From NCBI RefSeq assembly GCF_000196675.2, contig NC_015312.1:2666001-2730000 (forward strand): 64,000 nucleotides of DNA. Reading direction: 5' to 3'. The position numbers were made by a program, and so were the translations under genes. Below the pieces are notes generated by a model, which had not been told where the DNA came from, did no database searches, and saw nothing but the letters and a program-made list of their open reading frames with translations. How positions within the stretch are numbered: the first letter of the stretch is position 1; every line of letters begins with the position of its first letter. Positions 8,933 through 58,834 of the stretch are shown piece by piece. The stretch is from Pseudonocardia benzenivorans CB1190 (GTDB lineage Bacteria; Actinomycetota; Actinomycetes; Mycobacteriales; Pseudonocardiaceae).

Positions 8933-9781
8933 ATGACCGTGCTCGACGGATCGCCGGTGACCGATCGGGTGCGGCCGCGGCCTGCCGCCGCGGAGCCCGC
9001 CGAGGACACGGACGCGGGGGAGGGACCGCTGCGGTCGGTGGCGATCGCGATGGCGGTGCTCGACTGCTTCGGCGAGGAGCCCGAGCTCGGCGCGACGAAG
9101 GTCGCGCAACGGCTGGGCGTCGCGAAGAGCACGGCGTGCCGGATGCTGGCCGCGCTGGCGTCGGGCGGGCTGCTCGAGCGCAGCGGCGCCGGCCGCTACC
9201 GGCTGGGACTGCGGCTGTTCGAGATGGGTCAGCTCGCCGTCGACCGGCTGATGCTGCGCGAGGTCGCGCTGCCGGTGCTCGGCGAGCTGCGCGACGTGCT
9301 GCGCGAGACCGCGCAGCTCGCCGTGCCGGTCGGGGCCGACGTGCTCTACGTGGACCGGCTGGAGAGCTCCGAGGTCGGCATCATGTTCCACACCGAGCTC
9401 TACCGACGGGGGCCGGGGCACTCGTCGAGCGCGGGCAAGGCGATGGCCGCGGTCAACCCGGCGATGGCCCGGGCCATCATGGAACGCGGGTTCGTGCGCC
9501 GCACGCCGTTCACGATCGTCGACCCGGTGCGGTACCGGCAGGTGATGCGCCAGGTCCGCGCCGACGGCTACGCGGTCTCGCGCGACGAGCACACGCTGGG
9601 CATGTCGTCGATCGCGGCGCCGGTCGTGCTCACCCGCGGCGACCGGCGCGTGGCGGTCGCGGCGATCTCCGTCGTCGGTCGGACGGCGAGCATCCTGGGC
9701 ACCCGCAAGATGGCCGTCGTGCAGAACGTGCGGCGGGCGGCGGCCGCGGTCTCCGCAGAGCTGGACCGCTCGACCCCGTGA
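8933..9781 (+). CDS. IclR-family transcriptional regulator
   Basis: A 282-residue regulator with a ~30-residue Pro/Ala-rich N-terminal extension before the winged helix (SVAIAMAVLDCFGE, VAQRLGVAKSTACRMLAAL) and an IclR effector domain (ADVLYVDRLESSEVG, SSSAGKAMAAV, SRDEHTLGMSSIAAPVVL). It is the last gene of the dioxygenase operon, starting 4 bases after the phosphatase stop, so it is co-expressed with the enzymes, unlike the divergent IclR genes. Its stop codon TGA lies inside the left arm of the palindrome at 9778. It may be a feedback regulator of this operon or serve a distal target. Confidence 0.92.
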   Translation: MTVLDGSPVTDRVRPRPAAAEPAEDTDAGEGPLRSVAIAMAVLDCFGEEPELGATKVAQRLGVAKSTACRMLAALASGGLLERSGAGRYRLGLRLFEMGQLAVDRLMLREVALPVLGELRDVLRETAQLAVPVGADVLYVDRLESSEVGIMFHTELYRRGPGHSSSAGKAMAAVNPAMARAIMERGFVRRTPFTIVDPVRYRQVMRQVRADGYAVSRDEHTLGMSSIAAPVVLTRGDRRVAVAAISVVGRTASILGTRKMAVVQNVRRAAAAVSAELDRSTP

Positions 9782-9832
9782 GCGGCGATGGGCGCTGGAA
9801 CCACAGTCGCTGGCGCCACCACCGCCGCTCAC
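9778..9832. repeat. Convergent-junction palindrome, copy 1 (divergent member)
   Basis: This 55-nt element starts GTGAGCGGCGATGG and ends CACCGCCGCTCAC; its outer arms match the 40-nt family found at six other convergent junctions, but the centre is longer and less regular. The left arm supplies the TGA stop of the IclR gene. It lies between convergent genes ending at 9781 and 9836, and it is probably a bidirectional terminator hairpin. Confidence 0.7.
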
Positions 9833-9835
9833 GAC

Positions 9836-10309
9836 TCAGCGGGCACGGTACGGGCGGAGCCGGACGAGCGTGATCCGTCGCCGCACCCCGGCCTGGTACT
9901 TGTCGTACATCCCGCCGATCGCGCGGAACCGCTGCCACAGCTCGTCGTGCTCGGCGTCCGGGACCGCCTCGGCCACGACCGCCCGGCGCTCGCCGCGGAT
10001 CTCGATCTCGGCGTAGGGGCTGTCCTGGAGGTTGAGCCACCACTGGGGCTCGGCGTCGACCCCGCCGTTGGACGCCGCGACCAGCACGTCCTCCCCGTCG
10101 CGCAGGTGCAGCAGCGGCACGGTGTACTGCCGGCCGCTGCGGCGGCCGGTGTGGGTGAGCAGCACGACGTCGCCGCCCCGGAAGCGCCACATCGCGCGGC
10201 CCCGCACGGCGCGCAGCAGCGCCGTGTGCACCGGTCCGACCCACCGCATGATCGCGGTCGCGCGGCGGTCCTTCGGGGTCATCCGAGCGGTGGGGGTCGC
10301 GGTCTCCAT
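9836..10309 (-). CDS. Deazaflavin (F420)-dependent nitroreductase-family protein
   Basis: A 157-residue protein of the Ddn/split-barrel family, recognised by VVLLTHTGRRSGRQYTVPL, the following DGEDVLVAASNGG, and the PQWWLNLQ segment. Family members use reduced F420 to reduce quinones, nitro compounds or aflatoxin-like lactones, mostly in actinobacteria. It is divergent from a TetR gene across a 61-base region with a palindromic operator candidate, the standard arrangement for TetR control of a detoxifying enzyme. Both genes end at palindromes. The substrate cannot be read from sequence. Confidence 0.88.
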   Translation of the reverse strand: METATPTARMTPKDRRATAIMRWVGPVHTALLRAVRGRAMWRFRGGDVVLLTHTGRRSGRQYTVPLLHLRDGEDVLVAASNGGVDAEPQWWLNLQDSPYAEIEIRGERRAVVAEAVPDAEHDELWQRFRAIGGMYDKYQAGVRRRITLVRLRPYRAR

Positions 10310-10327
10310 GGCTCCTCCTGAATTCGC

Positions 10328-10362
10328 TGTAGTTGCGACTCTATGAATTGAGTGCTGCTACA
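10328..10362. promoter_or_regulatory. Candidate TetR operator
   Basis: An imperfect palindrome with arms TGTAGTTGCGACTC (10328-10341) and GAGTGCTGCTACA (10350-10362) fills most of the 61-base gap between the divergent F420 protein and TetR genes. TetR regulators usually bind such a site to control both promoters. It ends 8 bases before the TetR start codon, so binding would also block TetR transcription. Confidence 0.6.
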
Positions 10363-10370
10363 GTCAAGGG

Positions 10371-10994
10371 GTGGCCACGCGTTCCTACAACTCCGCGCTG
10401 CGCGACGAGCAGGCGCGTCGCACCCGCGCCGCCGTGCTCGACGCCGCGGCCCGCTGCTTCGAGCGCGACGGGTACGCGGCCACGACGATGAAGGCGATCG
10501 CCGCCGAGGCGGGGGTGTCCGCGCAGACCGTCTTCACCCAGGGCGCCAAGGCCGCGTTGCTGCTCGCGGCGGTCGACCGCGGTTTCGTCGGCGACGACGA
10601 GGAGGTCCCGCTGCTCGCCCGGGAGGGCTTCCGCCGGTTCATCGAGGAGCGCGACCGGACCCGCAAGCTCGCCATGCTGCGCGAGCTGGCCGTCGGCTAC
10701 TACCGCGGGGCGCCTGCGATGCTGCGCGTCTTCCGCAACGCCGCCGGTGGCGACGCCGAGCTCGCCGCGGCCTGGGAGGAGTACGAGCGGCGTCGCTACC
10801 AGGACATCCGCACGATCACCGAGTCGTTCGTCCCGATGCTGCGCCTCGACGTCGACCGGGCCACCGACATCTACTGGTCGCTCGCCGGCCTGGAGCTCGC
10901 GGACAGCCTGATCCGCGTCCGCGGCTGGACCGTCGAGGAGTACGCGGACTGGATGGCCGACGCGATCGACCGCCTGCTCCTGACACCCCTGTGA
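10371..10994 (+). CDS. TetR-family transcriptional regulator
   Basis: A 207-residue protein with an N-terminal helix-turn-helix (AVLDAAARCFERDGYAATTM, then IAAEAGVSAQTVFTQGAKAALL) and an all-helical C-terminal ligand domain. The turn VSAQTVFTQGAKAALL differs from the usual YxHFxxKExL by replacing the Tyr/His with TVFTQG, a variant seen in other actinobacterial TetR proteins. It starts at GTG 10371 and is divergent from the F420 protein it probably represses. The stop codon is the TGA in the left arm of the palindrome at 10991. The ligand is unknown. Confidence 0.9.
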   Translation: MATRSYNSALRDEQARRTRAAVLDAAARCFERDGYAATTMKAIAAEAGVSAQTVFTQGAKAALLLAAVDRGFVGDDEEVPLLAREGFRRFIEERDRTRKLAMLRELAVGYYRGAPAMLRVFRNAAGGDAELAAAWEEYERRRYQDIRTITESFVPMLRLDVDRATDIYWSLAGLELADSLIRVRGWTVEEYADWMADAIDRLLLTPL

Positions 10995-11030
10995 GCGGCG
11001 ATGGTCGCCAGAGCGACCGTCGCCGCTCAC
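10991..11030. repeat. Convergent-junction palindrome, copy 2
   Basis: Forty bases beginning GTGAGCGGCGATGGTCGCCA and ending GAGCGACCGTCGCCGCTCAC. The arms pair over 18 positions with one G-U type change and a CAGA loop. The TetR stop codon is inside the left arm; the convergent MetE-like gene stops at 11035, just beyond the right arm. Probably a bidirectional terminator. Confidence 0.8.
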
Positions 11031-11034
11031 GACC

Positions 11035-12192
11035 TCAGTACATGCGCTCGGTCGCCAGCCGCGCGCCCTCGGCGAGGGCGCGGAACTTCTCCCACACGAC
11101 CGTCGGGTGGACCTCGGGATGGAACGACGCGCGCGAGGAGAACCCGCAGTCCGCGCCCGCGATGACGTTCTCCTTGCCCACGATGCCCGCGTACAGCTCG
11201 ATCGTGTCGGCGATCAGCTCCGGGTGCTCGACGTAGTTGCTCGCGTGCCCGAGCAGCCCCGGGATGAGGACCTTGCCCTCCGGGAGCGTCACGTCGCGCC
11301 AGATCTTCCACTCGTGCTGGTGGCGCGGGTTGGCGACCTCGAAGGAGTAGGCGCCCGCGTTCACCTTGAGCATGAGCGGCGCGATGTCGCGGAACGCCAG
11401 GTCGTGGATGCGCGGTCCGTGGTTGAGCCCGTAGCAGGTGTGCAGCCGGATCTTCTCCTGCGGGATGCCGCGCAGCGCGTGGTTGAGGATCTCGATGTGC
11501 TGCTCGGCGTCGCGGACGCGCTGCTCGGGCGTCGTCGCGGGGTTCTCCGAGAGGTACTCGATCAGCCACGGGTCGTCGACCTGCAGCAGGAACCCGGCGT
11601 CGACGATCGCCAGGTACTCCTCGCGCAACGCCTCGGCCACCGCCGTCAGGTAGTCGCCGTGCGAGGGGTAGTACTCGTTGCGGCCGAACCCGCTGGGGCT
11701 GGTCGACGGCAGGAAGGCCTCGGTCACCGGGCCCGCGGCGGCGATCGCGGCGCGCAGGTTCTCGACGTCGGTCCGCAGCTGCGCGTGCCCGTCGTAGCTG
11801 ACGGGTCCGGTGCAGACCATCGTCGTCATGGGGGAGACCTGGTCCTTGTACTTGCCGAGGTAGTCGGCGTAGTACTCCGGGAAGGCGTCGATCTCCACCT
11901 GCCACGACGGCGGCATCAGCTTCTCGCCGGTCCCGGTGTCGAAGCCGGTCAGCCGGTCCTTGACGTAGGTCAGGAAGCTGACCTTGCTCATCTCGCCGTC
12001 GGTGACCACGTCGATGCCCGCCGACACCTGCTCGCGGACGACCTCGTCCACGGCGGCGGTGACGCGCTTGGCGTACCCGTCGACGTCGTAGGGCCGGCCG
12101 TGCTCCTTCTCGCGCATCGCCTCGAGCAGGTCGCGCGGCCGCGCGAGGCTCCCGACGTGGGTGGTGAGGATCCGGTCGTCGCTGCGCTGCAT
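11035..12192 (-). CDS. Cobalamin-independent methionine synthase (MetE C-terminal)-like methyltransferase
   Basis: A 385-residue single-domain member of the MetE/UROD superfamily, half the size of bacterial MetE. The zinc-thiolate site is present: H251 and C253 (RLHTCYGLNHG) and C349 (IAGADCGFSS). The N-terminus ILTTHVGSLARP and the VSAGIDVVTDGEMSK segment are typical of the stand-alone group, which includes epoxyalkane:CoM transferase and proteins of unknown methyl donor. Without the MetE N-terminal domain, folate triglutamate specificity is doubtful. It is divergent from a TetR gene, implying induction by a compound, as expected for a catabolic thiol or methyl transferase rather than housekeeping methionine synthesis. 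Confidence 0.82.
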   Translation of the reverse strand: MQRSDDRILTTHVGSLARPRDLLEAMREKEHGRPYDVDGYAKRVTAAVDEVVREQVSAGIDVVTDGEMSKVSFLTYVKDRLTGFDTGTGEKLMPPSWQVEIDAFPEYYADYLGKYKDQVSPMTTMVCTGPVSYDGHAQLRTDVENLRAAIAAAGPVTEAFLPSTSPSGFGRNEYYPSHGDYLTAVAEALREEYLAIVDAGFLLQVDDPWLIEYLSENPATTPEQRVRDAEQHIEILNHALRGIPQEKIRLHTCYGLNHGPRIHDLAFRDIAPLMLKVNAGAYSFEVANPRHQHEWKIWRDVTLPEGKVLIPGLLGHASNYVEHPELIADTIELYAGIVGKENVIAGADCGFSSRASFHPEVHPTVVWEKFRALAEGARLATERMY

Positions 12193-12234
12193 GGCCCGGA
12201 CGGTAGGAGCGCGTCATCGGCCCGGCCAGTGCGA

Positions 12235-12253
12235 TGTTCCCCCGCAGGGAACA
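12235..12253. promoter_or_regulatory. Candidate TetR operator
   Basis: A perfect 19-nt palindrome, TGTTCCC-CCGCA-GGGAACA, sits in the 80-base gap between the divergent MetE-like (start 12192) and TetR (start 12273) genes. Its position 20 bases before the TetR start suggests autorepression together with control of the methyltransferase-like gene. Confidence 0.6.
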
Positions 12254-12272
12254 CGGGCCTTAGGCTGCCGAT

Positions 12273-12884
12273 GTGCCACGTCCCAGCCGTTGGTCGGAGA
12301 TCCTCGTCGCCGCGGGGGAGGAGTTCCGCGAGCGCGGCTACGACACCGCGACGCTGGAGAGCATCGGCGCGCGGGTCGGGATCCTCAAGGGCAGCATCTA
12401 CAACTACGTCGCCAGCAAGGAGGAGCTGCTGCTGGCGGTCGTCGAGCAGCCGGCCAAGCAGCTGCTCGCCGAGCTGGACCGGCTCAACCACGACTCCGGC
12501 AGCAGTGCAGCGGCGCGGCTGCGCGAGCTGATCCGCACCCAGGTCCGCATCTTCAGCGACTGCTACCCGGCTGCGTTCGTCTACCTGCAGCACATCCGGA
12601 TGAGCGGCGAGCGGTTCGACGAGTTCCGCGCGATGGACGCCCGCTACATGGCCGCCGTCGAGGAGCTGGTCGCCGACGGTGCGCGGTCGGGGGAGTTCTC
12701 GTTGGCCGCCGACGCCCGGACGACGGCACGCGCGATCGTCGGGATGCTCGACTGGATGCAGCACTGGTTCACCCCGCGCGGCGAGCAGGCCGACCGGGAG
12801 CTGGCCGACCAGCTGTTCGCGACGGCCCTCGGCGGCCTCGCCGCGGGCGGCGGGATGCACGCCATGGCCCGGGACCTGCCCTGA
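12273..12884 (+). CDS. TetR-family transcriptional regulator
   Basis: A 203-residue TetR protein: helix-turn-helix EILVAAGEEFRERGYDTATL and IGARVGILKGSIYNYVASKE at about 8-50, where the YNYVASKEELL turn is canonical. The C-terminal domain contains FSDCYPAAFVYLQHIRMSG and DWMQHWFTPRGEQA, a pattern of the TetR_C/KstR2-like helical domain. It starts at GTG 12273 and is divergent from the MetE-like gene, with a palindrome between them. It ends 5 bases before the convergent palindrome at 12889. Ligand unknown; an acyl-CoA is possible given the family resemblance but unproven. Confidence 0.9.
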   Translation: MPRPSRWSEILVAAGEEFRERGYDTATLESIGARVGILKGSIYNYVASKEELLLAVVEQPAKQLLAELDRLNHDSGSSAAARLRELIRTQVRIFSDCYPAAFVYLQHIRMSGERFDEFRAMDARYMAAVEELVADGARSGEFSLAADARTTARAIVGMLDWMQHWFTPRGEQADRELADQLFATALGGLAAGGGMHAMARDLP

Positions 12885-12888
12885 GGTC

Positions 12889-12930
12889 GTGAGCGGCGAT
12901 GGTCGCGCTGCAGCGACCATCGCCGCTCAC
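12889..12930. repeat. Convergent-junction palindrome, copy 3
   Basis: Forty-two bases with 18-nt perfect arms (GTGAGCGGCGATGGTCGC and its complement) and a GCTGCA centre. The right arm contains the stop codon of the minus-strand P450 gene (12927-12929), and the left arm begins 5 bases after the TetR stop. Probable bidirectional terminator of the same family as the other copies. Confidence 0.85.
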
Positions 12931-14135
12931 AGGGAGCGGAAGGTCACCGGCAGGCGGACGAGGCCACGGGAGAGCAGCACCGGGTGCCACCGCAGCGGCT
13001 CGTCGGCCAGAGCCATCCCCTGCAGTCGACGCACCGCAGCCGGGATCGCGACGGACCCCTCCAGCCGGGCCAGCGGCGCGCCCAGGCAGTAGTGCAGTCC
13101 GACGCCGAAGCCGAGCTGGCGGCCGGTGGCCCGGCCCGGATCGAAGCGGTCGGGGTCGTCGAACACGGCCGGGTCGCGGTTGGCCGCCGACGGGCACAGG
13201 AACACCCGGTCGCCGCGACGCAGCATCCGGCCCCTGACCTCGACGTCGGTGGCCATCAGCCGGGCGATGGTCTTGGCGGGGCCGTCGTAGCGCAGCACCT
13301 CCTCGACGAGGCCGTCCGCGGTCGCGGGCACGCCGGGATGGCGCAGCAGGGCGAGCAGACCGTTGCCGATGAGGTTCGTCGTCGTCTCGTGGCCGGCGAA
13401 CAACAGCAGCACCCCGGTGGACACGACCTCGTCGTGGGTGAGGGTGTCGCCGGCGTCGCGGGCCTGGATCAGGGCGGTCAGCAGGTCGTCGGCGGGCTCG
13501 CGCTCGTGGCGGGCGACGAGCTCGGTGAGATAGGCGGTCAGCTCGGCCATGCCGGCCGCGCCCGCGGAGTGTCGCTGCGGGTCGCCCATGCCGCCGAACA
13601 CCAGCCCGGCGATGGCGTCGGACCAGTCCTTGAAGACGTCGCGGTCCGCGCGCGGGACACCGAGCAGCTCGGCGACGACCGACGCCGTGAGCGGGTAGGC
13701 GAAGTCGCCGACGAGGTCGGCGTGGCCGCGGGGCGCGATCTCGGAGAGCAGCTCCTCGACCAGCTCGGCCACCCGCGGGCGCACCCGCTCGACGGCGCGC
13801 GGGGTGAACGCGCGCGACAGCAGCTTGCGCAGGCGGGTGTGGTCGGGCGGGTCCTTGAACACCATCCAGTCCTCGAGCACGCCGAACGCCGCGCGCACGG
13901 CGGGGTCGGCGTCGTCGCGCTCGAGTCGGGCCCGGCGGTAGGGGGCGATGCGGTCGGAGGAGAACCGCGGGTCGCGCAGCGCGGCGTCGACGTCGTCGTA
14001 GCGGGTGAGGAACCACGAGCGGTAGCGCTCGCTCCAGTGCACGGGATCGTGCTCGCGCAACGCCGCGAGCAGCGGATAGGGATTCTCGACGGCACCCGGG
14101 CCGAGCAGGTCGGCATCCGGGGGTGCGGTGGTCAC
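12927..14135 (-). CDS. Cytochrome P450
   Basis: A 402-residue soluble bacterial class I P450 with all hallmarks: I-helix AGHETT (247-252), K-helix ExxR (E279-R282), and the heme loop FGVGLHYCLG with the thiolate ligand C350. It needs a ferredoxin and reductase from elsewhere; none is adjacent. Its GTG at 14135 overlaps the stop of the thiolase gene, so it is the third gene of a DUF35-thiolase-P450 operon. That pairing suggests hydroxylation of a lipid-like or steroid-like substrate whose chain is then handled as a CoA thioester. Substrate not predictable. Confidence 0.92.
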   Translation of the reverse strand: MTTAPPDADLLGPGAVENPYPLLAALREHDPVHWSERYRSWFLTRYDDVDAALRDPRFSSDRIAPYRRARLERDDADPAVRAAFGVLEDWMVFKDPPDHTRLRKLLSRAFTPRAVERVRPRVAELVEELLSEIAPRGHADLVGDFAYPLTASVVAELLGVPRADRDVFKDWSDAIAGLVFGGMGDPQRHSAGAAGMAELTAYLTELVARHEREPADDLLTALIQARDAGDTLTHDEVVSTGVLLLFAGHETTTNLIGNGLLALLRHPGVPATADGLVEEVLRYDGPAKTIARLMATDVEVRGRMLRRGDRVFLCPSAANRDPAVFDDPDRFDPGRATGRQLGFGVGLHYCLGAPLARLEGSVAIPAAVRRLQGMALADEPLRWHPVLLSRGLVRLPVTFRSL

Positions 14136-15262
14136 GGTGCCTCCAGCACGGCGACCACGCAGGCGTTGCCGTCGAGGGCGCTGACGCCACCGCCCATGGT
14201 CTCGACGAGCCCGATCCGCGCGCCGTCGACCTGCCGCCCGCCGGCCTCGCCGCGCAGCTGCCACACGATCTCGGCGAGCTGGGCCAACCCGGTGGCGCCC
14301 AACGGGTGCCCGCGCGAGAGGAGTCCGCCCGACGGGTTGACCGGGTGCGCACCGCCGAGCGCGGTCACCCCGGTCTCGGCGGCCTTGCCGCCCTCGCCGG
14401 GGGCGACGAGGCCCAGGGCCTCGGTGGTGACGATCTCGCCGATGGTGAACGCGTCGTGCACCTCGACGACGTCGACGTCGGTGGCGGCGTGCAGGCCGGC
14501 GGCGGCGAGGGCGTCGGCGGCGGTCTCGGCGACGATGTCGTAGCCCCATACGTGCGGGGAGCGTCGGCCCCAGGGGGCGCCGGAACGCAGCGCGATCCCG
14601 CGGACGCCGACCTCGCGCGCGCCGCCGCGCGCCGGTCCGACGACCGCGGCGCCCGCCCCGTCGGAGGTGGGGCAGCACTGCAGCAACGTCAGCGGGTCGG
14701 CGATCATCCGCGAGGCCAGCACCTCGTCGACGGTGTAGCGGCCGGAGTACTGGGCGCGTGGGTTGTGCAGGGCGTGCGCGTGGTTCTTCACCGAGACGGC
14801 GGCGAGCTGGGCGGGGGTGACGGCGCCGTCGTGCAGGTAGCGGGTGGCGGCCATGGCGTAGAGGGCGGGGAGCGCGAGGCCGGTGGCGCCCTCCGGGTCG
14901 GTGTCCTCGGGGGTGATCGCGCCGTCGAACGCGGTGCTCATCTGCTCGATGCCCAGGGCGAGGACGCGGCCGTAGCGGCCGGTGCGGACGGCCTCGCATG
15001 CCTCGGCGAACGCGGTGGTGCCGCTGGCGCAGGCGTTCTCGACGGTCACGACGGGGACCCGGGTGATGCCCATGGCCCGCAGGACCCGCTGTGCCACCCC
15101 GGCCGGTGCGAACACGGTCCCGACCCAGACGGCGTCGATCGGCCCGGGACCGGCGTCGGCCAGCGCCTCGGACACCGCGGTCCAGGCGAGGGTGACGAGG
15201 TCGGTGCCGGGGGCGCGCCCGAAGTGCGAGGTCCCGACCCCGTGCACGGCGATGTCGCTCAT
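14132..15262 (-). CDS. Thiolase-like / lipid-transfer protein (SCP2-thiolase type)
   Basis: A 376-residue thiolase-fold protein of the SCP2/lipid-transfer group. The nucleophilic cysteine is kept (VTVENACASG, C78), as are VEVHDAF and the C-terminal GGLLSRGHPLGATG loop. The last stretch (ETMGGGVSALDGNACVVAVL) keeps a Cys in the second catalytic region. With Cys78 present it may be a real beta-ketothiolase, unlike the protein at 63354. It overlaps the DUF35 gene by 4 bases; such thiolase-DUF35 pairs form complexes in which the OB/zinc-ribbon protein gates the CoA substrate. Likely acts in side-chain beta-oxidation. Confidence 0.85.
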   Translation of the reverse strand: MSDIAVHGVGTSHFGRAPGTDLVTLAWTAVSEALADAGPGPIDAVWVGTVFAPAGVAQRVLRAMGITRVPVVTVENACASGTTAFAEACEAVRTGRYGRVLALGIEQMSTAFDGAITPEDTDPEGATGLALPALYAMAATRYLHDGAVTPAQLAAVSVKNHAHALHNPRAQYSGRYTVDEVLASRMIADPLTLLQCCPTSDGAGAAVVGPARGGAREVGVRGIALRSGAPWGRRSPHVWGYDIVAETAADALAAAGLHAATDVDVVEVHDAFTIGEIVTTEALGLVAPGEGGKAAETGVTALGGAHPVNPSGGLLSRGHPLGATGLAQLAEIVWQLRGEAGGRQVDGARIGLVETMGGGVSALDGNACVVAVLEAP

Positions 15263-15627
15263 CCGATGACCTCCACCTGCGGATCGGGTGCCCCGGCGCG
15301 CAGCCGGACCCGCGTGCCGACGGCCGGTGCCGTGTCACCATCTCCATCGACGACGACGTGGGCGAGCACACGGGGGCCGTCGTCGAGGTCGACGTAGGCC
15401 AACGCGTACGGGGGTGTGCGGCCGGCGACGGGGATGCGGACGACGGTCGCGCTCCACACCACGCCCTCGGGGCCGAACTCGGCCGCGACGACCGGGCCGC
15501 CGCACTCCGGGCACGCGGGCCAGGGGTAGGCGACCGGCTCGGCACACGCCTGACACCGGACTCCGGCGACATGCGGCGCGCCATCGGGCGCGACGACGAT
15601 GCGCGGGCGTGGATCGACGACGGTCAC
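15259..15627 (-). CDS. DUF35 OB-fold / zinc-ribbon protein, thiolase partner
   Basis: A 122-residue protein with two CxxC knuckles (CQACAEPVAYPWPACPECGG) followed by an OB-fold domain (VVWSATVVRIPV, PPYALAYVDLDDGPRVLAHV), the standard DUF35 layout. DUF35 proteins bind acyl-CoA and pair with thiolases or MaoC hydratases. The GTG at 15627 is my choice because the zinc ribbon then starts about 22 residues in. An upstream ATG at about 15675 is possible but would cover most of the promoter region. First gene of the operon leading into the thiolase and P450. Confidence 0.75.
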   Translation of the reverse strand: MTVVDPRPRIVVAPDGAPHVAGVRCQACAEPVAYPWPACPECGGPVVAAEFGPEGVVWSATVVRIPVAGRTPPYALAYVDLDDGPRVLAHVVVDGDGDTAPAVGTRVRLRAGAPDPQVEVIG

Positions 15628-15772
15628 ATCGACATGAAACCAAACCGCGGGTCGGCTATCAATGGCCAGCGGCATCTTCGCCCCTCGGGGCGACACCGCG
15701 TCGGAGCACGTTGATCGCGGAGTCTTGACACCCGGCAAGGGCTCGCGACACAGTGACGCGAAGCACCTTCAG

Positions 15773-15786
15773 CAAACCGGCGTTTG
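15773..15786. promoter_or_regulatory. Short palindrome in divergent promoter region
   Basis: CAAAC-CGGC-GTTTG lies in the 235-base region between the divergent DUF35 (15627) and LLM (15863) genes, the only AT-richer part nearby. A TTGACA hexamer is present at 15725-15730 on the plus strand and at 15785-15790 on the minus strand, but no convincing -10 is spaced from either. It may be an operator; no regulator gene is adjacent. Confidence 0.3.
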
Positions 15787-15862
15787 TCAAATTTCGTCGA
15801 CCGGTGCCGTCGGGTGACCACCCGAAGCCGGACGACCGGAGCCGTCGAAAGGACCCCGACCG

Positions 15863-16972
15863 ATGAAGTTCGGCTTCTTCACCATGCCCGAGCACCCGCC
15901 GCGCGAGAACTGGACGCTGTCCTACGACCGCGACATCGCGAACATCGTGGATGCCGAGCGGCTGGGCTTCCACGAGTTCTGGGTGGGCGAGCACCACACC
16001 GGCGGGTACGAGAACGTGCCGGTGCCCGAGTACATGATCGCCAAGGCGTCGGCCGTGACGCACCGGATCCGGCTGGGCACCGGTGTCATCAACCTGCCCT
16101 ACCAGGACCCGTTCATGGTCGCCGAGCGCATGGCGTTCCTCGACCACCTCACCCACGGCCGACTGGAGTACGGCTTCGGCGGCGGCGGGCTGCCGACCGA
16201 CAAGGAGCTGTTCGGGCTGGAGCCGTCGGAGGCCTCGCCGCGGACCAACGAGGCGCTGGAGATCATCTGGCAGCTGCTGACGTCGGACGACCCGGTCAGC
16301 TACGAGGGCCAGTACTGGAAGTACGAGAACCGCCAGCTGCAGGTCGGCCCCTACCAGGACGTCCCGCCCTTCGCGATCGCCGGCCTCACCGGCACCCACA
16401 ACTACGCCAAGTGCGGCGAGCGCGGCTGGAAGCCCCTGTCCGTGCACTTCGCCCCGATCGACAACGGCACCTACGAGCTCGCGCCCGACCTCAAGGCCAT
16501 GGGCAAGGCGATGCTCGACGCCGGAGCCGCCGCGGGCATCGACCCGGCCGTCACCCGCGACAACTGGCGCATCGTCCGCGAGGTCTACGTCACCGACGAC
16601 AAGAACCAGGCGCTCAAGGACATCCGTGAGGGCGTCAAGCTCTCCTACGACTACCTGTTCGGGCTGGGCCTCGGCGCGCTGATGAAGATCGGCGACGGGA
16701 TGGAGGACGCCGACCTGACCTTCGAGTGGATGGTCGACAACATCCCGTGGATCGTCGGCAGCCCGGAGGAGTGCACCCGCCAGCTCAAGGAGCTGGAGGA
16801 GGAGGTCGGCGGCTTCGGCACGCTGCTGATCAACGTCCGCGACTGGGTGACCACCGACAAGTGGAACCGGTCGAACGAGATGTTCGCCCGCTACGTCATG
16901 CCGCACTTCACCAAGCGTGAGCGGCTCGACCGGCGCCAGCGGCTCGCGAACCGCGCGCTGGGCATCGACTGA
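15863..16972 (+). CDS. LLM-class flavin-dependent monooxygenase (bacterial luciferase-like)
   Basis: A 369-residue TIM-barrel protein of the luciferase-like monooxygenase class: MKFGFFTMPEHPPRENW, FHEFWVGEHHTGGYENVP, THRIRLGTGVINLPYQDP and GRLEYGFGGGG are typical of FMN-dependent group C alkanal or heterocycle monooxygenases. It needs reduced flavin from a separate reductase; F420 use is less likely because of the luciferase-alpha-type N-terminus. AAAGGA lies about 11 bases before the ATG. The stop overlaps the SDR start (TGATG). It probably oxygenates the substrate that the SDR and CoA ligases downstream convert to a thioester. Confidence 0.9.
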   Translation: MKFGFFTMPEHPPRENWTLSYDRDIANIVDAERLGFHEFWVGEHHTGGYENVPVPEYMIAKASAVTHRIRLGTGVINLPYQDPFMVAERMAFLDHLTHGRLEYGFGGGGLPTDKELFGLEPSEASPRTNEALEIIWQLLTSDDPVSYEGQYWKYENRQLQVGPYQDVPPFAIAGLTGTHNYAKCGERGWKPLSVHFAPIDNGTYELAPDLKAMGKAMLDAGAAAGIDPAVTRDNWRIVREVYVTDDKNQALKDIREGVKLSYDYLFGLGLGALMKIGDGMEDADLTFEWMVDNIPWIVGSPEECTRQLKELEEEVGGFGTLLINVRDWVTTDKWNRSNEMFARYVMPHFTKRERLDRRQRLANRALGID

Positions 16973-17805
16973 TGGAGGCCGGGCTGTCCTCGCCGGTCCC
17001 GGAGCTCGACGGCCGGACGGTCGTGGTGACCGGCGGGGGCAGCGGCATCGGCAAAGGCATCGCCGCGGCCCTGCTGGAGAAGGGCGCCAACGTCGTCGTC
17101 CTGGAGATCGAGCCCGCCAACATCAAGTCGGCGTCCGAGGAACTCGGCGGCGGCGATCGGATCGCCTGGCACGAGGGCTCGGTGTCGGTCGCGGCCGACG
17201 TCGAGGCCGCGTTCGCGCTGGCCGCCGAGCGGTACGGCCAGGTCCACCACCTCGTCAACAACGCCGGGACGGCGTCGTTGTCACTGGTGGAGGACACGAC
17301 GGAGGAGGACTGGGACCTCATCGTCGACACCCTGCTCAAGGGCACGTTCCTGTGCACGCGGGCGTTCGCCCGGCAGGCGGCCGACGACGGGGAGCCCCGC
17401 TCGATCGTCAACATCTCGTCGTTGAACGCGATCGCGGCGACCGACGGCCTCGGCCACTACTGCGCGGCCAAGGCCGGCGTCATGCAGTTCACCCAGACCT
17501 GTGCGGGTGAGCTGGGCCGGCGCGGGATCCGGGTCAACGCCATCGGCCCCGGCACGGTGAACACCCCGCTCGGCGCGGGCTTCACCGTCGGGCAGATCGG
17601 CAAGGAGTTCCTCGACCGGACGCTCGTCGAGAAGCGGCACCAGGACCCGTCGGACATCGCCGACGTGGCGCTGTTCCTGATGTCGCCCGCGGCGCAGCGG
17701 ATCACCGGTCACTTCGTCCCGGTCGACGGTGGGCAGCACGTCCGCGGCCTGCACTCGTACTGGGACGTGGCGCTCGAACAGGGCCTGGTCGAGAGGCCGT
17801 CCTGA
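16972..17805 (+). CDS. Short-chain dehydrogenase/reductase
   Basis: A 277-residue classical SDR with the cofactor motif TGGGSGIG (20-27), NNAG (97-99 region), the catalytic Ser149/150 in IVNISS, and YCAAK (Y163, K167). The 20-residue C-terminal extension after VPVDGGQHV is a little longer than usual. Acidic residues after beta-2 (VVVLEIEPAN) favour NAD+. It is translationally coupled to the LLM monooxygenase, and likely oxidises or reduces the hydroxylated product before activation by the ligase that follows. Confidence 0.9.
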   Translation: MEAGLSSPVPELDGRTVVVTGGGSGIGKGIAAALLEKGANVVVLEIEPANIKSASEELGGGDRIAWHEGSVSVAADVEAAFALAAERYGQVHHLVNNAGTASLSLVEDTTEEDWDLIVDTLLKGTFLCTRAFARQAADDGEPRSIVNISSLNAIAATDGLGHYCAAKAGVMQFTQTCAGELGRRGIRVNAIGPGTVNTPLGAGFTVGQIGKEFLDRTLVEKRHQDPSDIADVALFLMSPAAQRITGHFVPVDGGQHVRGLHSYWDVALEQGLVERPS

Positions 17806-17808
17806 GAG

Positions 17809-19350: not shown

Positions 19351-19358
19351 GAGCCCCA

Positions 19359-20720: not shown

Positions 20721-20777
20721 GCGGCGCACGACGGCTGCGTCGCCGCACCCTGCGGCCGGCGGTACGCCGCGGATGTC

Positions 20778-20817
20778 GTGAGCGGCGATGGTCGCCATGG
20801 CGACCATCGCCGCTCAC
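20778..20817. repeat. Convergent-junction palindrome, copy 4 (perfect)
   Basis: A perfect 40-nt palindrome with half-site GTGAGCGGCGATGGTCGCCA. The minus-strand dipeptidase stop (20814-20816) is in the right arm; the plus-strand ligase stops 58 bases upstream. Each arm also contains a small palindrome of its own (GGCGA-TGG-TCGCC), so two mini-hairpins or one long hairpin could form. Confidence 0.88.
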
Positions 20818-24401: not shown

Positions 24402-24402
24402 G

Positions 24403-39741: not shown

Positions 39742-39779
39742 ACCCTGTCGCACCCCTGAAGCACTGCCGCACCCGTGAG
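39727..39779. repeat. Short degenerate tandem repeat at gene end
   Basis: Nearly three copies of an 18-19 base unit beginning CTGTCGCACCC (39727, 39745, and a variant CTGCCGCACCC at 39764) run across the BKACE stop codon into the palindrome at 39775. Probably recent slippage; no function seen. Confidence 0.5.
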
Positions 39780-39814
39780 TGGTGATGGTCGCCATGGCGA
39801 CCATCACCACTCAC
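39775..39814. repeat. Convergent-junction palindrome, copy 5 (perfect, covarying)
   Basis: A perfect 40-nt palindrome with half-site GTGAGTGGTGATGGTCGCCA. Compared with copy 4 it has two C-to-T changes in the left arm and the two matching G-to-A changes in the right arm, so base pairing is kept while sequence changes. It lies between the convergent BKACE and P450 genes. Confidence 0.88.
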
Positions 39815-46952: not shown

Positions 46953-47729
46953 ATGGCGGAGGATTCCGAGGATGTGACGGTCGAGCGGCGCGGCGACGTG
47001 GCGTGGGTCCGGCTCAACAGGCCGGACCGGATGAACGCCTACGACGCGGCGATGGGCCGGGCGCTCACCGACGCGGTGCGTGGCGCGGCCGACGCGGGGG
47101 TGATCGTGCTGACCGGGACCGGTCGCGCCTTCTGTGCGGGCGGCTACCTGGCCAACCTCGCCGATCCCGATCCCGAGGAGCTGCGGGGCATGTTCTTCGC
47201 CTCGCTCGAATTGTTCGACGTCATCCGCACCTCGCCGCGGCCGGTGATCGCCGCCGTCAACGGCGCCGCGGCGGGCGGCGGCAACGAGCTCGTCGTGGCC
47301 TGCGACCTCGCGATCGCCGCGCGCAGCGCGAAGCTCGGCCAAACCGGTCCGCGCGTCGGCAGCGCGCCGGTGCTGGGCGGGACGAACCTGCTCGCGATCT
47401 CGGTGGGGGAGAAGCGGGCCAAGGAGATCTCGATGATGTGCCGGCGCTACACCGCCGAGCAGGCCCTGCAGCTGGGGTGGCTCAACGCCGTCGTCGACGA
47501 CGACGACCTGGAGGCGGAGGTGACCCGCTGGGCCGACGAGCTGCTCGCCCTCTCGCCGCGCTACCTGGAGATCGCGAAGATCAGCTCCAACGTGTGGTGG
47601 AACGCCTGTCGTGACAGCTACGTCTCCGGGCTCGGGATGCTGGTGCAGGCCATCGGGTCCGACGACATGCGCGAGGGCGCGGCCGCCTTCATGGAGAAGC
47701 GGGCGCCGCGGTTCCGGGACCCGCGATGA
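46953..47729 (+). CDS. BadI-like 2-ketocyclohexanecarboxyl-CoA hydrolase / enoyl-CoA hydratase family
   Basis: A 258-residue crotonase-fold protein. Beyond the CoA-binding GTGRAFCAGG and the oxyanion region VNGAAAGGGNELVVACDLAI, it has the MenB/BadI-type features GQTGPRVGSAPVLGGTNLLA, GEKRAKEISMMCRRYTAEQA, LGWLNAVV and a C-terminal AFMEKRAPRF. BadI opens an alicyclic ring by hydrolysing a 2-keto CoA ester, so ring fission of a cyclohexane-type acid is likely. It is coupled to the CoA ligase downstream (ATGA). Alternative: a plain enoyl-CoA hydratase. Confidence 0.85.
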   Translation: MAEDSEDVTVERRGDVAWVRLNRPDRMNAYDAAMGRALTDAVRGAADAGVIVLTGTGRAFCAGGYLANLADPDPEELRGMFFASLELFDVIRTSPRPVIAAVNGAAAGGGNELVVACDLAIAARSAKLGQTGPRVGSAPVLGGTNLLAISVGEKRAKEISMMCRRYTAEQALQLGWLNAVVDDDDLEAEVTRWADELLALSPRYLEIAKISSNVWWNACRDSYVSGLGMLVQAIGSDDMREGAAAFMEKRAPRFRDPR

Positions 47730-49357
47730 GGACCTACCGCGACCTGCGCCCGACCTTCCCCGACCGCGCGACCTGGACGCTGCCCGCGGTGCTGCGCCAC
47801 CGGGCCGCGACCCACGCCGATGCCGTCTTCCTCGACGTCCCGTTCCAGGGCACGCAGCTGACCTACGCCGAGACGCTCGACGCGGCCGAACGCGTCGGCG
47901 GGGCGCTGCTCGCGGACGGCTGCACGCAGGGCGACCGGGTCCTGATCATGGGGGCCAACAGCGTCGAGTACCTGCTCGCGTGGCTCGGTGCCTCGGTGGC
48001 CGGGCTCGTCGAGGTCCCGATCAACACCGCGTACCGCGGCACGTTCCTGGAACACCAGGTGCGCACCGTGGCGCCGCGCGCGGCGGTGGTCGACCCCGAG
48101 TTCGTCGACCACTTCCTGCCGCTCGACGCCGCTCGCGCCATCAAGACCTTCTACGTCACCGGAGCCGCCGACGCGGCGATCGCGGCACTGCGCGCCGCCG
48201 GCTGGGAGGCACACCCCTACGCGGCCCTCACCGGTGCCGACCGCCCGGGGTCGCTTCCCGACGTCGCCGCCTCCGACCTGGCGGCGATCCTGTTCACCAG
48301 CGGCACGACCGGTCTGTCCAAGGGCGTGATGATGCCGCACGCCCACTTCCACTTCTTCGCCGACGAGTGCGTCTCGCTCTGCCGGCTCACCGACGCCGAC
48401 GCCCACATGGCCGTCGGCCCGCTCTTCCACGGCAACGCGCAGTTCCTCGCGTGCTATCCGGCGATGATCGTCGGCGCCCGGTTCGTGCTGCAGCAGCGCT
48501 TCAGCGCCTCACGCTGGGTCGACCAGCTGCGCGAGTCCGGCGTGACCGTCACGAACTTCATCGGCGTGATGATGGACTGGGTGTACAAGCAGCCCCGCCG
48601 TCCCGACGACGCCGACAACCCGCTGCGCTGCCTCTACGCCGTCCCGCTCGCCACGTCGATCGCCGCGGACTTCAAGGCGCGCTTCGGGATCGAGGCGTTC
48701 GTCGAGAACTTCGGGCTCACCGAGATCGCGATGCCGATCCTCACCCCCTACGGCGAGGAGCGCCCGCCGGGCGCGGCCGGCCTGCTCGTCGACGAGTACT
48801 TCGACGTGCGGCTGGTCGACCCGGAGACCGACGAGGAGGTGCCCGTCGGGGAGGTCGGCGAGCTGGTCGTGCGTGCCCACCTGCCGTTCACGATGACGAC
48901 GGGCTACTACGGCATGCCCGAGCGCACCGTCGAGGCCCAGCGCAACCTGTGGTTCCACACCGGCGACGGGCTGCGCCGCGACGCCGAGGGCTGGTACTAC
49001 TTCGTCGACCGGCTCAAGGACGCGTTGCGCCGGCGCGGGGAGAACATCAGCTCCTTCGAGGTCGAGCAGCCGGTCCTCGCCCACCCGGGCGTCCTGGACT
49101 GCGCGGTCGTCGGCGTCCCGGCCGACGCCGAGGCGGGTGAGGACGAGCTGCTGCTCGTCGTCGTCCCGGAGGCGGGCGTGCCGCTGACCGCGGCGGACAT
49201 CTGGGAGTGGTGCGAACCGCGGCTGCCCGCCTTCGCCGTCCCGCGCTACGTCCGCATCGCCGACGCCCTGCCGATGACCCCGTCGGGCAAGGTCCGCAAG
49301 CTGGAGCTGCGCGAGACGGGTGTCGACGCCGCGACCGCCGACCGCGAGTCCCCGTGA
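47726..49357 (+). CDS. AMP-dependent acyl-CoA ligase (CaiC/crotonobetaine-ligase-like)
   Basis: A 543-residue ANL enzyme with P-loop FTSGTTGLSKGV (from residue 190), ENFGLTEIA, WFHTGDGLRRDAEGWYYFVD, and the C-terminal lysine motif PSGKVRKLELRE. Segments such as MMPHAHFHFFADECVSLCRL are closer to the CaiC/ATP-dependent crotonobetaine ligase group. It supplies the CoA ester used by the BadI-like enzyme coupled to it. Its stop codon TGA is the one within the left arm of the palindrome at 49354. Confidence 0.9.
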   Translation: MRTYRDLRPTFPDRATWTLPAVLRHRAATHADAVFLDVPFQGTQLTYAETLDAAERVGGALLADGCTQGDRVLIMGANSVEYLLAWLGASVAGLVEVPINTAYRGTFLEHQVRTVAPRAAVVDPEFVDHFLPLDAARAIKTFYVTGAADAAIAALRAAGWEAHPYAALTGADRPGSLPDVAASDLAAILFTSGTTGLSKGVMMPHAHFHFFADECVSLCRLTDADAHMAVGPLFHGNAQFLACYPAMIVGARFVLQQRFSASRWVDQLRESGVTVTNFIGVMMDWVYKQPRRPDDADNPLRCLYAVPLATSIAADFKARFGIEAFVENFGLTEIAMPILTPYGEERPPGAAGLLVDEYFDVRLVDPETDEEVPVGEVGELVVRAHLPFTMTTGYYGMPERTVEAQRNLWFHTGDGLRRDAEGWYYFVDRLKDALRRRGENISSFEVEQPVLAHPGVLDCAVVGVPADAEAGEDELLLVVVPEAGVPLTAADIWEWCEPRLPAFAVPRYVRIADALPMTPSGKVRKLELRETGVDAATADRESP

Positions 49358-49393
49358 GCGGCGATGGTCGCCATGGCGACCATCGCCACTCAC
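49354..49393. repeat. Convergent-junction palindrome, copy 6
   Basis: Forty bases with half-site GTGAGCGGCGATGGTCGCCA, imperfect at one pair (C against A in plus-strand RNA, a U-G wobble in minus-strand RNA). The left arm holds the CoA ligase stop codon. Lies between convergent genes. Confidence 0.85.
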
Positions 49394-52313: not shown

Positions 52314-52376
52314 GGAGCGCCCGAGTGGCCTGCGCAAGATGCCGGGCCGGGCTTTCGTCGCGCCCAATCCATGTAT

Positions 52377-52387
52377 ATCGTTATCAG
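52377..52387. promoter_or_regulatory. Island promoter/operator motif, copy e
   Basis: ATCGTTATCAG, identical to the element at 37342-37352, 91 bases upstream of the LivH-type permease start in the divergent region. Confidence 0.5.
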
Positions 52388-52477
52388 CCGAATCGGGCGG
52401 CGTGTCTCGTCGCCGGAGGACGGGAGGTCGACGATGACCCGATGCGTCAGCCCCGGGTGGGCTCGCCGGGGGTCGCG

Positions 52478-55945: not shown

Positions 55946-56027
55946 CGGCGCGGGGCGAGGCGGACGGGTGCACCCGCGCCGCGGCCGGGCCCCGCGACAC
56001 ACACCGAACCGACGAGAGGGGGAACGC

Positions 56028-57209: not shown

Positions 57210-57222
57210 CCGGAGGAATCAC

Positions 57223-57987
57223 GTGGACATCGCAGGCATCTCGGCGCTCGTCACGGGCGGCGCCTCCGGGCTGGGGCTGGCCACCGCGCGGCGGCTGGTG
57301 AAGGCGGGCGCGAGCGTCGTGCTGCTCGACCTGGAGTCCTCGGGGGGTGCCGCCGCCGCGGCGGAGCTCGGGGACCAGGCCCGTTTCGTCCCCGGTGACG
57401 TGCGGACCGAGGAGGGCGTGGCTCCCGCGCTCGACGCCGCCGAGGAGCTCGGGCCGTTGCGCGCCGTCGTGCACTGCGCGGGGCGCGGGCACGCGATGCG
57501 CGTCCTCCAGCGCGACGGCAGCCCCGGATCGCTCGCGGACTACTCCGCGATCATCGAGCTCAACCTGATCGGCTCGTTCAACGTGCTGCGACTCGCCGCC
57601 GCGCGGATCGCCACGACCGAGCCCGTCGACGGCGAGCGCGGCGCGATCGTGCTGACGGCGTCGGTCGCGGCGTGGGAGGGCCAGATCGGCCAGATCCCGT
57701 ACGCGTCGTCGAAGGCGGGCATCGTCGGCATGACGATCGTCGCGGCCCGCGACCTCGCGTCCAAGCAGATCCGGGTGGCGACGATCGCGCCCGGCATCTT
57801 CGACACGCCGCTGCTCGGGCGCCTTCCCCAGGAGGTGCGCGACTCGCTCGGCAAGATGGTGCCGCACCCCAGCCGGCTCGGGGTCCCCGACGAGTTCGGC
57901 GCCCTCGCGACGCACATCCTGGAGAACCCGATGATCAACGGCGAGACCATCCGCCTCGACGGCGGCATCCGGATGGCGCCCAGATGA
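57223..57987 (+). CDS. SDR, HSD10-like 3-hydroxyacyl-CoA dehydrogenase
   Basis: A 254-residue SDR: cofactor loop TGGASGLG (about 10-17), Asp after beta-2 ([12 protein letters not shown] preference), [25 protein letters not shown] with catalytic Ser, Tyr and Lys, and [11 protein letters not shown]. The insert around [16 protein letters not shown] and the C-terminal end fit the HSD10/type II 3-hydroxyacyl-CoA dehydrogenase group. GGAGGA lies 6 bases before GTG 57223. Next to a thiolase and an enoyl-CoA hydratase, it probably performs the middle step of beta-oxidation. Confidence 0.9.
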
Positions 57988-58790
57988 CCGGCGTGCACCC
58001 GAACGGAGCCGCTCCCACGCCGACCGCGCCGGGGCTGCTCGTCGAGCGCGACGGGCCGGTGCTGGTGCTGACGATCGACCGGCCCCGGCGGCGCAACGCC
58101 GTCGACCTCGCGACGGCCCGGCTGATCAGCGCGGCGCTCGACGAGCTCGACTCCGACCCGGAGCTGCGGGTCGGCGTGCTGACCGGGTCGTCGGGCTTCT
58201 TCTCGGCGGGCATGGACCTCGCCGCGTACTCGGCCACGGGCGAGCGGCCCGTCGACGAGCGGCGCGGCGGGTTCGGGATCGTCGGCAGGCCGCCGGAGAA
58301 GCCGATCGTCGCCGCGGTCGAGGGCCCCGCGCTGGGCGGCGGGTTCGAGATCGCGCTCGCCTGCGACCTGGTCGTGGCGGGCGAGGGAGCGACGTTCGGG
58401 CTGCCCGAGGTCAAGCGCGGGCTCGTCGCCGCGGGCGGCGGGGTGCTGCGGCTGCCGCGGCTCGTGCCGCGCAACGTCGCGAACGAGGCCGTGCTGACCG
58501 GTCGCCCGTTGACCGCGGCCCGCTGCGCCGAGCTGGGCCTGGTCAGCCGTGTCGTCGCCGACGGCGGTGCGCTGGCGGCCGCCCGCGAGCTCGCCGCCGA
58601 GATCGCGGGGAACGCCCCGCTGGCGGTACGGGCGTCGAAGGCCGTGATGACGGAGTCGGCCCTGTGGCCGCACGACGAGCTGTTCACCCGCCAGGAGCCG
58701 CTGCTCGCAACGGTCCGGACGTCGGAGGACGCCAAGGAGGGAGCGCGCGCGTTCGTCGAGAAGCGGGCGCCGCGCTGGACCGGCCGCTGA
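57984..58790 (+). CDS. Enoyl-CoA hydratase/isomerase family protein
   Basis: A 268-residue crotonase-fold enzyme with CoA-binding [15 protein letters not shown], the oxyanion region [20 protein letters not shown], and [19 protein letters not shown] where the hydratase Glu residues lie. The C-terminus [12 protein letters not shown] is the usual end. The ~17-residue Pro/Ala N-terminal extension is not conserved in the family. ATG overlaps the SDR stop (ATGA). Last gene of the thiolase-SDR-hydratase operon, ending 4 bases before a palindrome. Confidence 0.9.
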
Positions 58791-58794
58791 CCCC

Positions 58795-58834
58795 GTGGGC
58801 GGCGATGGTCGCCCCGGCGACCATCGCCGCCCAC
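58795..58834. repeat. Convergent-junction palindrome, copy 7 (covarying)
   Basis: Forty bases with 19-nt perfect arms starting GTGGGCGGCGATGGTCGCC. The A-to-G change at position 4 is matched by T-to-C in the other arm relative to copy 4, keeping pairing. Between convergent enoyl-CoA hydratase and acyl-CoA dehydrogenase genes. Confidence 0.87.

Follow-up and report, generated by a model that had tools for sequence, protein, structure and literature searches.

A REP-like palindromic repeat at gene 3' ends in Pseudonocardia and relatives: a candidate U-less hairpin of transcript ends

Why does one short palindrome recur between genes that run towards each other? The question arises from a 64-kb window, i.e. 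the whole stretch of DNA analysed here, for which a sequence-only reading had described seven 40-nt palindromes restricted to convergent gene junctions. A search of this window with the half-site (at most three mismatches) returned 13 matches compared with 0.06 expected from shuffled sequences, and the seven elements are real. Their placement was reproduced with our own gene caller: all seven lie between convergent genes and occupy 7 of the 11 convergent junctions, or 7/9 of those offering at least 36 nt of room. The copies are listed below, a copy being called polar if TC stands outside one end and CC or CT outside the other.

9778..9832, + strand: degenerate 55-nt copy with an imperfect fold spanning 9778-9831; the + strand gene 8933-9781 takes its stop codon from the TGA of this copy.
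10991..11030, + strand: 40-nt copy with polarity towards + (CCCT..GACC), whose TGA terminates the + strand gene 10371-10994; 40-nt copies also occupy this junction in the relatives G058, G032 and G037.
12889..12930, - strand: 42-nt copy, polar towards - (GGTC on the left, AGGG on the right), providing the stop codon of the - strand gene 12927-14135; copies of identical polarity occur at this junction in G058, G032 and G037.
20778..20817, - strand: perfect 40-nt copy, polar towards -, providing the stop codon of the - strand gene 20814-22049; the matching place was found in G032 and lacks the copy.
39775..39814, no strand assigned: perfect 40-nt copy with two paired changes and CC on both sides, which makes it non-polar; the stop codons of the two genes lie 33 and 61 nt away; G058 and G032 have copies at the same junction.
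49354..49393, + strand: 40-nt copy with one unpaired position; its flanks, CC and CG, do not qualify it as polar; it contributes the TGA stop codon of the + strand gene 47726-49357; the palindromic core at this junction in G032 is unrelated in sequence.
58795..58834, + strand: 40-nt copy (GTGGGCGG..CCGCCCAC) with a paired change at position 4, polar towards +, beginning 4 nt past the stop codon of the + strand gene 57984-58790; several relatives have lost or replaced this copy.

The length of 40 nt applies to five copies, those at 9778 and 12889 being degenerate with 55 nt and 42 nt long, respectively. As had been proposed, the TGA of the outer GTGA serves as a called stop codon, namely at five of the seven copies (9778, 10991 and 49354 on the + strand, 12889 and 20778 on the - strand), and the matching arm changes at 39775 and 58795 are present. 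The absence of a T-run was likewise borne out: a hairpin followed by a T-run, as in a classic intrinsic terminator, was seen at none of the window copies (four scanned within 9000-22000, the other three by eye). The small hairpin noted in each arm belongs to the inner sequence of this genome, but many equally palindromic copies of relatives do without it (by eye).

Beyond the window, the half-site occurs 132 times in forward and 124 times in reverse orientation across the whole genome, compared with 2 and 1 for the reversed control. For junction analysis we used a sample of 2,064,000 of the 7,440,794 bases in five blocks, with genes called by our own script independently of the annotation. Here, the supposed restriction to convergent junctions did not hold: the 62 sampled elements split into 27 copies at convergent junctions, 23 at same-strand ones and 3 at divergent ones, the remaining 9 lying within called genes. 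Defined by the half-site instead (n = 68), the counts are 28, 31, 4 and 5. Scored by orientation, same-strand copies are thus nearly as common as convergent ones, and it is the divergent junctions that are avoided; among junctions that offer 36 nt or more, an element is present at 27/170 convergent, 23/662 same-strand and 3/311 divergent ones. The elements mark gene 3' ends, and as palindromes of 20-40 bp with many copies outside genes they are REPs in the broad sense. Some of the nine in-gene copies look like overlaps with gene ends, others like chance matches in coding sequence. Neither an element nor another strong inverted repeat was found at 87 of 196 convergent junctions.

The contact with genes is close. 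Of 77 gene ends next to an element, 17 use the element's own TGA as their stop codon (offset -4), and a further 26 show offsets of +2 to +9; for other inverted repeats, the corresponding values are 3/429 and 53/429. An offset of -4 is also the commonest one in each of five other locus sets.

The sequence-only reading had overlooked one property of the unit, its polarity. This was evaluated for 150 of 211 elements, i.e. 40-nt copies from Pseudonocardia-type loci with at most two end mismatches and at most five unpaired positions, away from locus ends and with duplicates removed; some represent one junction across species and are not all independent. Polar flanks were found in 107/150 copies (about 65 expected), and polarity is evident in the majority of the Pseudonocardia genomes studied. 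The CC/CT end of copies at same-strand junctions points towards the stop codon in 32 cases and away from it in 9. An additional non-overlapping count gave 5 versus 2, the latter two coming from genomes with mostly symmetric units. Few copies follow the rule in G002 (10/260) and G006 (25/87). The tags of the 107 polar copies are GGTC (55), CCTC (23), CGTC (6), TGTC (4) or other (19), TC being the only constant part and fixed by the definition of polar; their tails are AGG (48), GGG (36), GGC (11) or others (12).

The stem comprises 18 bp starting with G-C and T-A, and the 20778 copy gives a stable fold of -38.4 kcal/mol. Across species, arm covariation reaches a score of 0.496, compared with 0.144 for shuffled and at most 0.143 for slid arms. 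The earlier reading had taken the matching changes as direct evidence of selected pairing; covariation is indeed strong, but compensatory change is not by itself such evidence because template-switch repair of palindromes could also yield it. A REP-like element with maintained arm pairing is supported. Selection at the RNA level, as judged by tolerance of G.U, is not: the sense strand at same-strand junctions showed no clear excess of G.U over A.C (15 vs 12), and the 107 polar copies trend slightly and non-significantly the opposite way (32 vs 45, p = 0.17). A conserved downstream tract standing in for the U-tract was rejected, since both ends decay equally at same-strand junctions (9 vs 7 mismatches). 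In other genera, some copies keep their ends with poorly paired arms.

The reading that we favour, at roughly even odds (about 0.5), is that of a dispersed REP-like repeat of Pseudonocardia and its relatives, probably maintained as a hairpin without a U-tract by which mRNA 3' ends are formed or protected. The typical sense unit is CCY-GTGAGYGG-(24-nt inner hairpin)-CCRCTCAC-GA, placed at or right after a gene's stop codon. Transcribed copies can form a hairpin of 18 bp, closed by a 4-nt loop, at the mRNA end. Most likely, this hairpin would act as an I-shaped, U-lacking terminator or hold back 3' exonucleases; between convergent genes, it may also limit read-through into the opposite gene. RNA 3' ends would then lie at the copies, the cell would presumably benefit, and the copies would have spread by some copying process. 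We count in favour of this reading the preference for 3' ends, the stop offsets, the 32:9 orientation, the fold and the covariation, together with the unrelated inverted repeats at the 58795 junction and the U-poor transcript ends described for S. clavuligerus (PMC8269248). Counted against it are the lacking G.U excess, the equal end decay, the copies with poorly paired arms in other genera, the 87/196 bare convergent junctions and the few polar copies in G002 and G006; moreover, a trailing ribosome could block a hairpin that touches the stop codon.

The comparison with relatives bears on how the repeat changes and spreads. The ends GTGAGYGG/CCRCTCAC persist, and one junction shows that the entire inner 24 nt can be replaced, as seen on comparing relatives that are about 92% identical; end conservation is partly built in for relatives fetched by pattern, the copies located via flanking genes being free of this bias. 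The conservation of the ends exceeds what pairing requires. Related palindromes fill other genera, and three relatives that lack the element carry an unrelated inverted repeat at the 58795 junction (by eye). Most of 74 rows scored as absent were excluded, owing to a false in-gene element (L271), a weak copy (L282) and GTGCGCGG-type copies (L240, L256). One plasmid search gave no matches and the other only weak ones from other phyla (E of at least 0.07 among the best 20 of 25).

Alternatively, the copies could be a selfish REP- or MITE-like repeat without host function, whose enzyme copies a tagged hairpin beside stop codons; only insertions at gene ends would survive, and polarity would stem from the insertion reaction rather than from transcription. 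The variable copy number (0 to 315 across the genus, with as many as 371 in the family), the many identical copies within one genome (G113), a one-sided tag as typical of REPs (PMC3733652, as far as the accessible text goes), the polarity kept at the 12889 junction in four species and mismatch types that do not favour an RNA role all suit this possibility. However, a search for the Y1_Tnp (IS200/RAYT) transposase family was negative in the own genome (0/1) and in 12 high-copy genomes (0/12) and positive in 5/14 control genomes, by which mobilisation of the RAYT/IS200 type was rejected. Furthermore, no precise empty site, target duplication or clean insertion footprint was found among the sites compared, two empty sites in close relatives (L173, L236) resembling imprecise deletions with a GTGAG remnant, and copies stay at shared junctions in several species with their pairing kept. 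We regard a purely selfish repeat as possible, if rather unlikely. Less probable still would be a new kind of mobile gene-end cassette, in which a non-Y1 enzyme reads the GTGAGYGG ends and the TC tag, places oriented 44-bp hairpins against stop codons and exchanges the inner 24 bp in place. Such an exchange would give one junction an unrelated and again self-complementary core while its surroundings stay about 92% identical.

The original proposal of a symmetric bidirectional terminator serving both genes of a convergent pair draws on the 27/62 copies at convergent junctions, on a convergent rate per gene 3' end that is 2.4 times the same-strand rate (p = 0.003) and on the symmetric units, with TC..GA at both ends, of G113 and G229 from two other genera. 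Same-strand copies are almost as many, however, and Pseudonocardia-type copies show polar flanks, with tight contact limited to the stop codon of one gene (within -4 to +5 in 52/80 vs 14/57). As most such copies are polar and tight on one stop codon, they seem to belong to one gene each, even at convergent junctions. The REP-like character that had been proposed thus stands, but a symmetric element confined to convergent junctions does not, and we consider such a terminator very doubtful.

A site acting at the DNA level, such as a binding place for a nucleoid protein, gyrase or another protein at the conserved ends, or a cruciform that relaxes supercoiling between convergent genes, has a similarly slight chance. 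Ends conserved beyond the needs of pairing, the sense strand without G.U excess, an inner spacing of exactly 24 nt in 96-99% of the copies of seven genomes and the copies with conserved ends but unpaired arms would agree with it. The spacing is not fixed, however: 26-nt forms make up 7/11 matches in G003, and three 25-nt forms occur in the own-genome sample, which weakens a strictly fixed protein-binding distance; neither stop-codon contact nor gene-relative orientation would be expected. Finally, a DNA uptake signal, suggested by a short motif that stands in inverted pairs at gene ends and by such pairs reported for uptake sequences (work cited in PMC2267715, consulted in part), is scarcely credible and was rejected, as the single 8-mers are not in excess outside the elements (24 vs 24.9 and 185 vs 163.0 expected).

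If the hairpins end transcripts, they would provide 3' ends that can be recognised from sequence, with no U-tract at the copies examined, in an actinobacterial lineage of high GC content. Their polar and symmetric natural variants, numbering in the hundreds, would allow U-less termination or 3'-end protection to be studied. The stop-codon contact bears on how closely ribosomes trail RNA polymerase in actinobacteria. If the repeat is mobile, it would represent a REP-like system for which no Y1_Tnp gene was found in the genomes searched. Either way, inner-arm replacement at a constant position is an uncommon form of change and accessible to direct tracking.

Compared with known systems, the repeat resembles REPs, yet it has its own build and its own mode of change. 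It shares with the GTAG REPs, REPINs and BIMEs associated with RAYT the nature of dispersed, high-copy extragenic palindromes at gene 3' ends, and differs from them in the GTAG tag (0/150 copies) and in the Y1_Tnp family, not found in the own and 12 further genomes. With the CGTC-tagged REPs of Di Nocera et al. 2013, it shares, according to the accessible part of that paper (PMC3733652), the form of a short palindrome with a one-sided tag, whose TC ending belongs here to the definition of polar (CGTC, TGTC or CCTC there; predominantly GGTC and CCTC in this repeat), located at gene 3' ends of convergent and same-strand junctions and without a dedicated transposase. Their stems, however, measure 8-9 bp with A-T in the first and second position and are followed by the tail CCA, whereas the stem here has 18 bp with G-C then T-A and the tail is mostly AGG or GGG; the present repeat further differs in its conserved ends, in inner arms that can be replaced and in the symmetric form seen in other genera. 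Actinobacteria are not mentioned for CGTC-tagged REPs in that part of the source, and the repeat is not described in titles or abstracts among the literature matches listed, a search that mostly left subscription papers outside. At the RNA level, Streptomyces clavuligerus commonly has U-poor, highly structured transcript ends (353/1,427; PMC8269248, seen in part), where strong GC-rich hairpins without U-tracts likewise occur in a GC-rich actinobacterium; those ends were mapped as RNA, whereas the present ones are predicted hairpins of a single sequence family. Similarly, the stem-loops described for convergent spaces (PMC1590033, in the part available) favour convergent over divergent junctions and the region right after stop codons, but constitute a general trend, whereas here the pattern is that of one repeat family.

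In the 64-kb window, which covers bases 2,666,001-2,730,000 of the main contig, the half-site of the palindrome gave 13 matches at up to 3 mismatches, with 0.06 expected, and the whole own genome (7.44 Mb) contained 256 matches compared to 3 for the reversed control; the recurrence noted in the sequence-only reading is thus reproduced. Genes were called with a purpose-written codon-usage gene caller, and all seven copies of the window (named by their starts 9778, 10991, 12889, 20778, 39775, 49354 and 58795) indeed lie between convergent genes. The same reading had described seven 40-nt palindromes. Five have this length; the other two are longer, with 42 nt for the 12889 copy and a degenerate form of 55 nt at 9778. 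Stop codons supplied by the element, likewise proposed, were recovered at 5/7 copies, where the called stop of a flanking gene comes from the element. A single feature of the window matched Rfam:

34676-34764, - strand, glycine riboswitch (55.6 bits)

The claimed restriction to convergent junctions, however, is a property of the window. We analyzed an own-genome sample of 2,064,000 bases, defining elements by their conserved ends (GTGAGYGG/CCRCTCAC) and by arm pairing. Of the resulting 62 elements, 27 lie between convergent genes, 23 between same-strand genes and 3 between divergent ones, and 9 fall within called genes. With the half-site definition (n = 68), 28 were convergent, 31 same-strand, 4 divergent and 5 in genes, relative to 316 convergent, 1,263 same-strand and 314 divergent junctions in total. 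When junctions offering 36 nt or more were counted, an element was present at 27/170 convergent, 23/662 same-strand and 3/311 divergent ones. This corresponds to 0.079 elements per gene 3' end at convergent and 0.035 at same-strand junctions (p = 0.003), with many of the same-strand gene ends in this comparison probably lying inside operons. Based on these junction counts and rates, the palindrome is a gene 3'-end element with a remaining enrichment at convergent junctions. Loci of named Pseudonocardia (n = 40) agree with the own genome, with 18 elements at convergent junctions, 19 at same-strand ones, 1 at a divergent one and 2 in a gene. Other inverted repeats were found at 81/168 element-free convergent junctions compared to 34/196 after shuffling.

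The contact with stop codons is close. The stop codon is part of the element (its G-TGA, offset -4) in 17/77 adjoining gene ends and lies at +2 to +9 in 26/77; the corresponding counts for other inverted repeats are 3/429 and 53/429. Offset -4 was the most frequent in each of the five other locus sets. Three 25-nt forms on contig C1 of the own genome (near 1484495, 4499436 and 5429742) look as though the 40-nt form had lost internal sequence. This genome also contains a second family of repeated palindromes, AGGAACGGCACTTTCCCGCA-loop-TGCGGGAAAGTGCCGTTCCT, which occurs at 10 places in the 2.06-Mb sample:

Second palindrome family, positions on C1 of the own genome
645277, 709837, 903186, 1646243, 2980524, 4504666: convergent junctions (6)
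1525596, 1548889, 5431674, 5620767: same-strand junctions (4)

Next to position, we assessed arm pairing in 45 copies from several genera (44 distinct rows). Here, 95.6% of cells pair, both sides change in some copy at 12/18 pairs, and the covariation score was 0.496 versus 0.144 for shuffled and 0.027-0.143 for slid alignments. Across 175 copies, inner mismatches averaged 0.89 when both arms came from one element, against 3.34 when arms of different elements from all loci were combined (0.91 versus 2.06 in the own genome only). Six end pairs are invariant in the 44 distinct rows, most of which were fetched with the ends fixed; in copies located via flanking genes, the ends are almost as well kept. 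As RNA, the 20778 copy is predicted to fold into an 18-bp stem (-38.4 kcal/mol).

In addition, the element has a direction. The two bases outside each end, read into the element, are nearly always pyrimidines, and the two sides are unlike: complementary flanks occur in 7/55 own-genome copies, with 17.3 +- 3.2 expected. In a set of 150 non-redundant Pseudonocardia-type copies, 107 were polar, having a TC side and an opposite CC or CT side (about 65 expected if the sides were independent); the remainder had TC on both sides (4), CC/CT on both sides (20) or other bases (19). Between same-strand genes, it is the CC/CT side that points to the upstream stop codon in 32 cases and the TC side in 9 (p = 0.0004; own genome alone 13:4). 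A further set contributed just 5:2 new copies, the 2 being from genomes with mostly symmetric units (TC..GA at both ends). The stop codon falls within -4..+5 for 52/80 genes on the CC/CT side and for 14/57 on the TC side. Exact searches of 17 whole genomes showed that one form usually dominates:

Polar versus TC..GA copies per genome (polar:TC..GA)
Polar-dominated: G000 48:2, G058 231:3, G032 136:9, G037 51:0, G024 75:1, G014 74:0, G010 46:1, G023 59:1
Symmetric-dominated, other genera: G113 1:165, G196 1:168, G143 1:98, G229 0:359, G087 0:66
Mixed: G097 61:16
Exceptions, of all copies: G002 10:1 of 260, G006 25:5 of 87, G209 1:2 of 42

In a named genome collection, all 35 stretches with an exact match to the palindrome's long form were from Pseudonocardia, which suggests this genus for the window as well. 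The pattern GTGAGYGG-N(6-30)-CCRCTCAC matched 53/62 genus genomes (0-315 copies each) and 198/249 family genomes (up to 371 copies), with 1-3 matches per genome being about the reversed-control level; at least 10 matches were present in 28/62 genus genomes. Exactly 24 nt separate the ends in 96-99% of matches in seven genomes, while G003 has 26 nt in 7/11. The inner arms are specific to each lineage and subfamily, and in some copies (e.g. in G113 and G209) the ends are kept while the inner arms barely pair. Copies from other genera, including loci L315, L321, L325, L327, L329 and L330, combine conserved ends with arms seemingly from two different subfamilies and look as if halves had been swapped at the centre.

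The same junctions were then compared between relatives. At 10991, G058 and G037 carry near variants, and in G032 the same ends enclose an unrelated core that likewise forms a near-perfect palindrome; at 49354, too, the core of the G032 copy is unrelated, and its type is common in that genome. Identity between G058 and G032 is 90-94% over the compared regions (mostly about 92%). All four species have a copy of identical polarity at the 12889 junction. Visual inspection of the 58795 junction showed unrelated inverted repeats in G060, G041 and G025, none in G033, a remnant in G058 and, in G032 (locus L295), an insertion of about 1 kb where the window has its copy. Precise excisions were not seen at the inspected empty sites, which resemble deletions.

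A hairpin at the mRNA 3' end would fit position, stop-codon contact and orientation. A hairpin without U-tract is credible as a 3' end in this phylum, as 353/1,427 transcript ends in a mapped Streptomyces transcriptome are described as U-poor and highly structured (PMC8269248). Stem-loops are reported to generally favour convergent over divergent spaces (PMC1590033). Since overlapping transcripts of convergent genes are reported to be common in Streptomyces (PMC3765725), limiting such overlap is a plausible benefit to the cell. Three observations count against an mRNA-3'-end hairpin: sense-strand mismatches at same-strand junctions (G.U 15, A.C 12), those in the 107 polar copies (G.U 32, A.C 45; p = 0.17) and equal decay at both element ends (9 versus 7). 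These mismatch types and the equal decay leave room for a role of the element at the DNA level, for a selfish repeat and for template-switch repair that maintains the palindrome. Terminators very near stop codons have served as an indication that RNA polymerase outruns ribosomes. Six runaway phyla, with Actinobacteria not among them, are named in a 2026 paper that classes phyla in this manner (PMC13323073).

No description of the Pseudonocardia palindrome family was found in the literature searched. The following appear to be new: the repeat family itself in Pseudonocardia and relatives, its polar and symmetric forms, each dominating whole genomes, stop codons provided by the element's own TGA, and inner arms being replaced while the site stays fixed. 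In a broad sense, the element is REP-like; a RAYT system was ruled out for it by Y1 and GTAG tests. The nearest described group are the CGTC-tagged REPs, which, as outlined in PMC3733652, share the one-sided TC-ending tag, adjoin gene 3' ends and have no dedicated transposase. However, the stem is of another length and begins with other pairs, and the tail is not the one outlined there; we therefore do not file the element among them.
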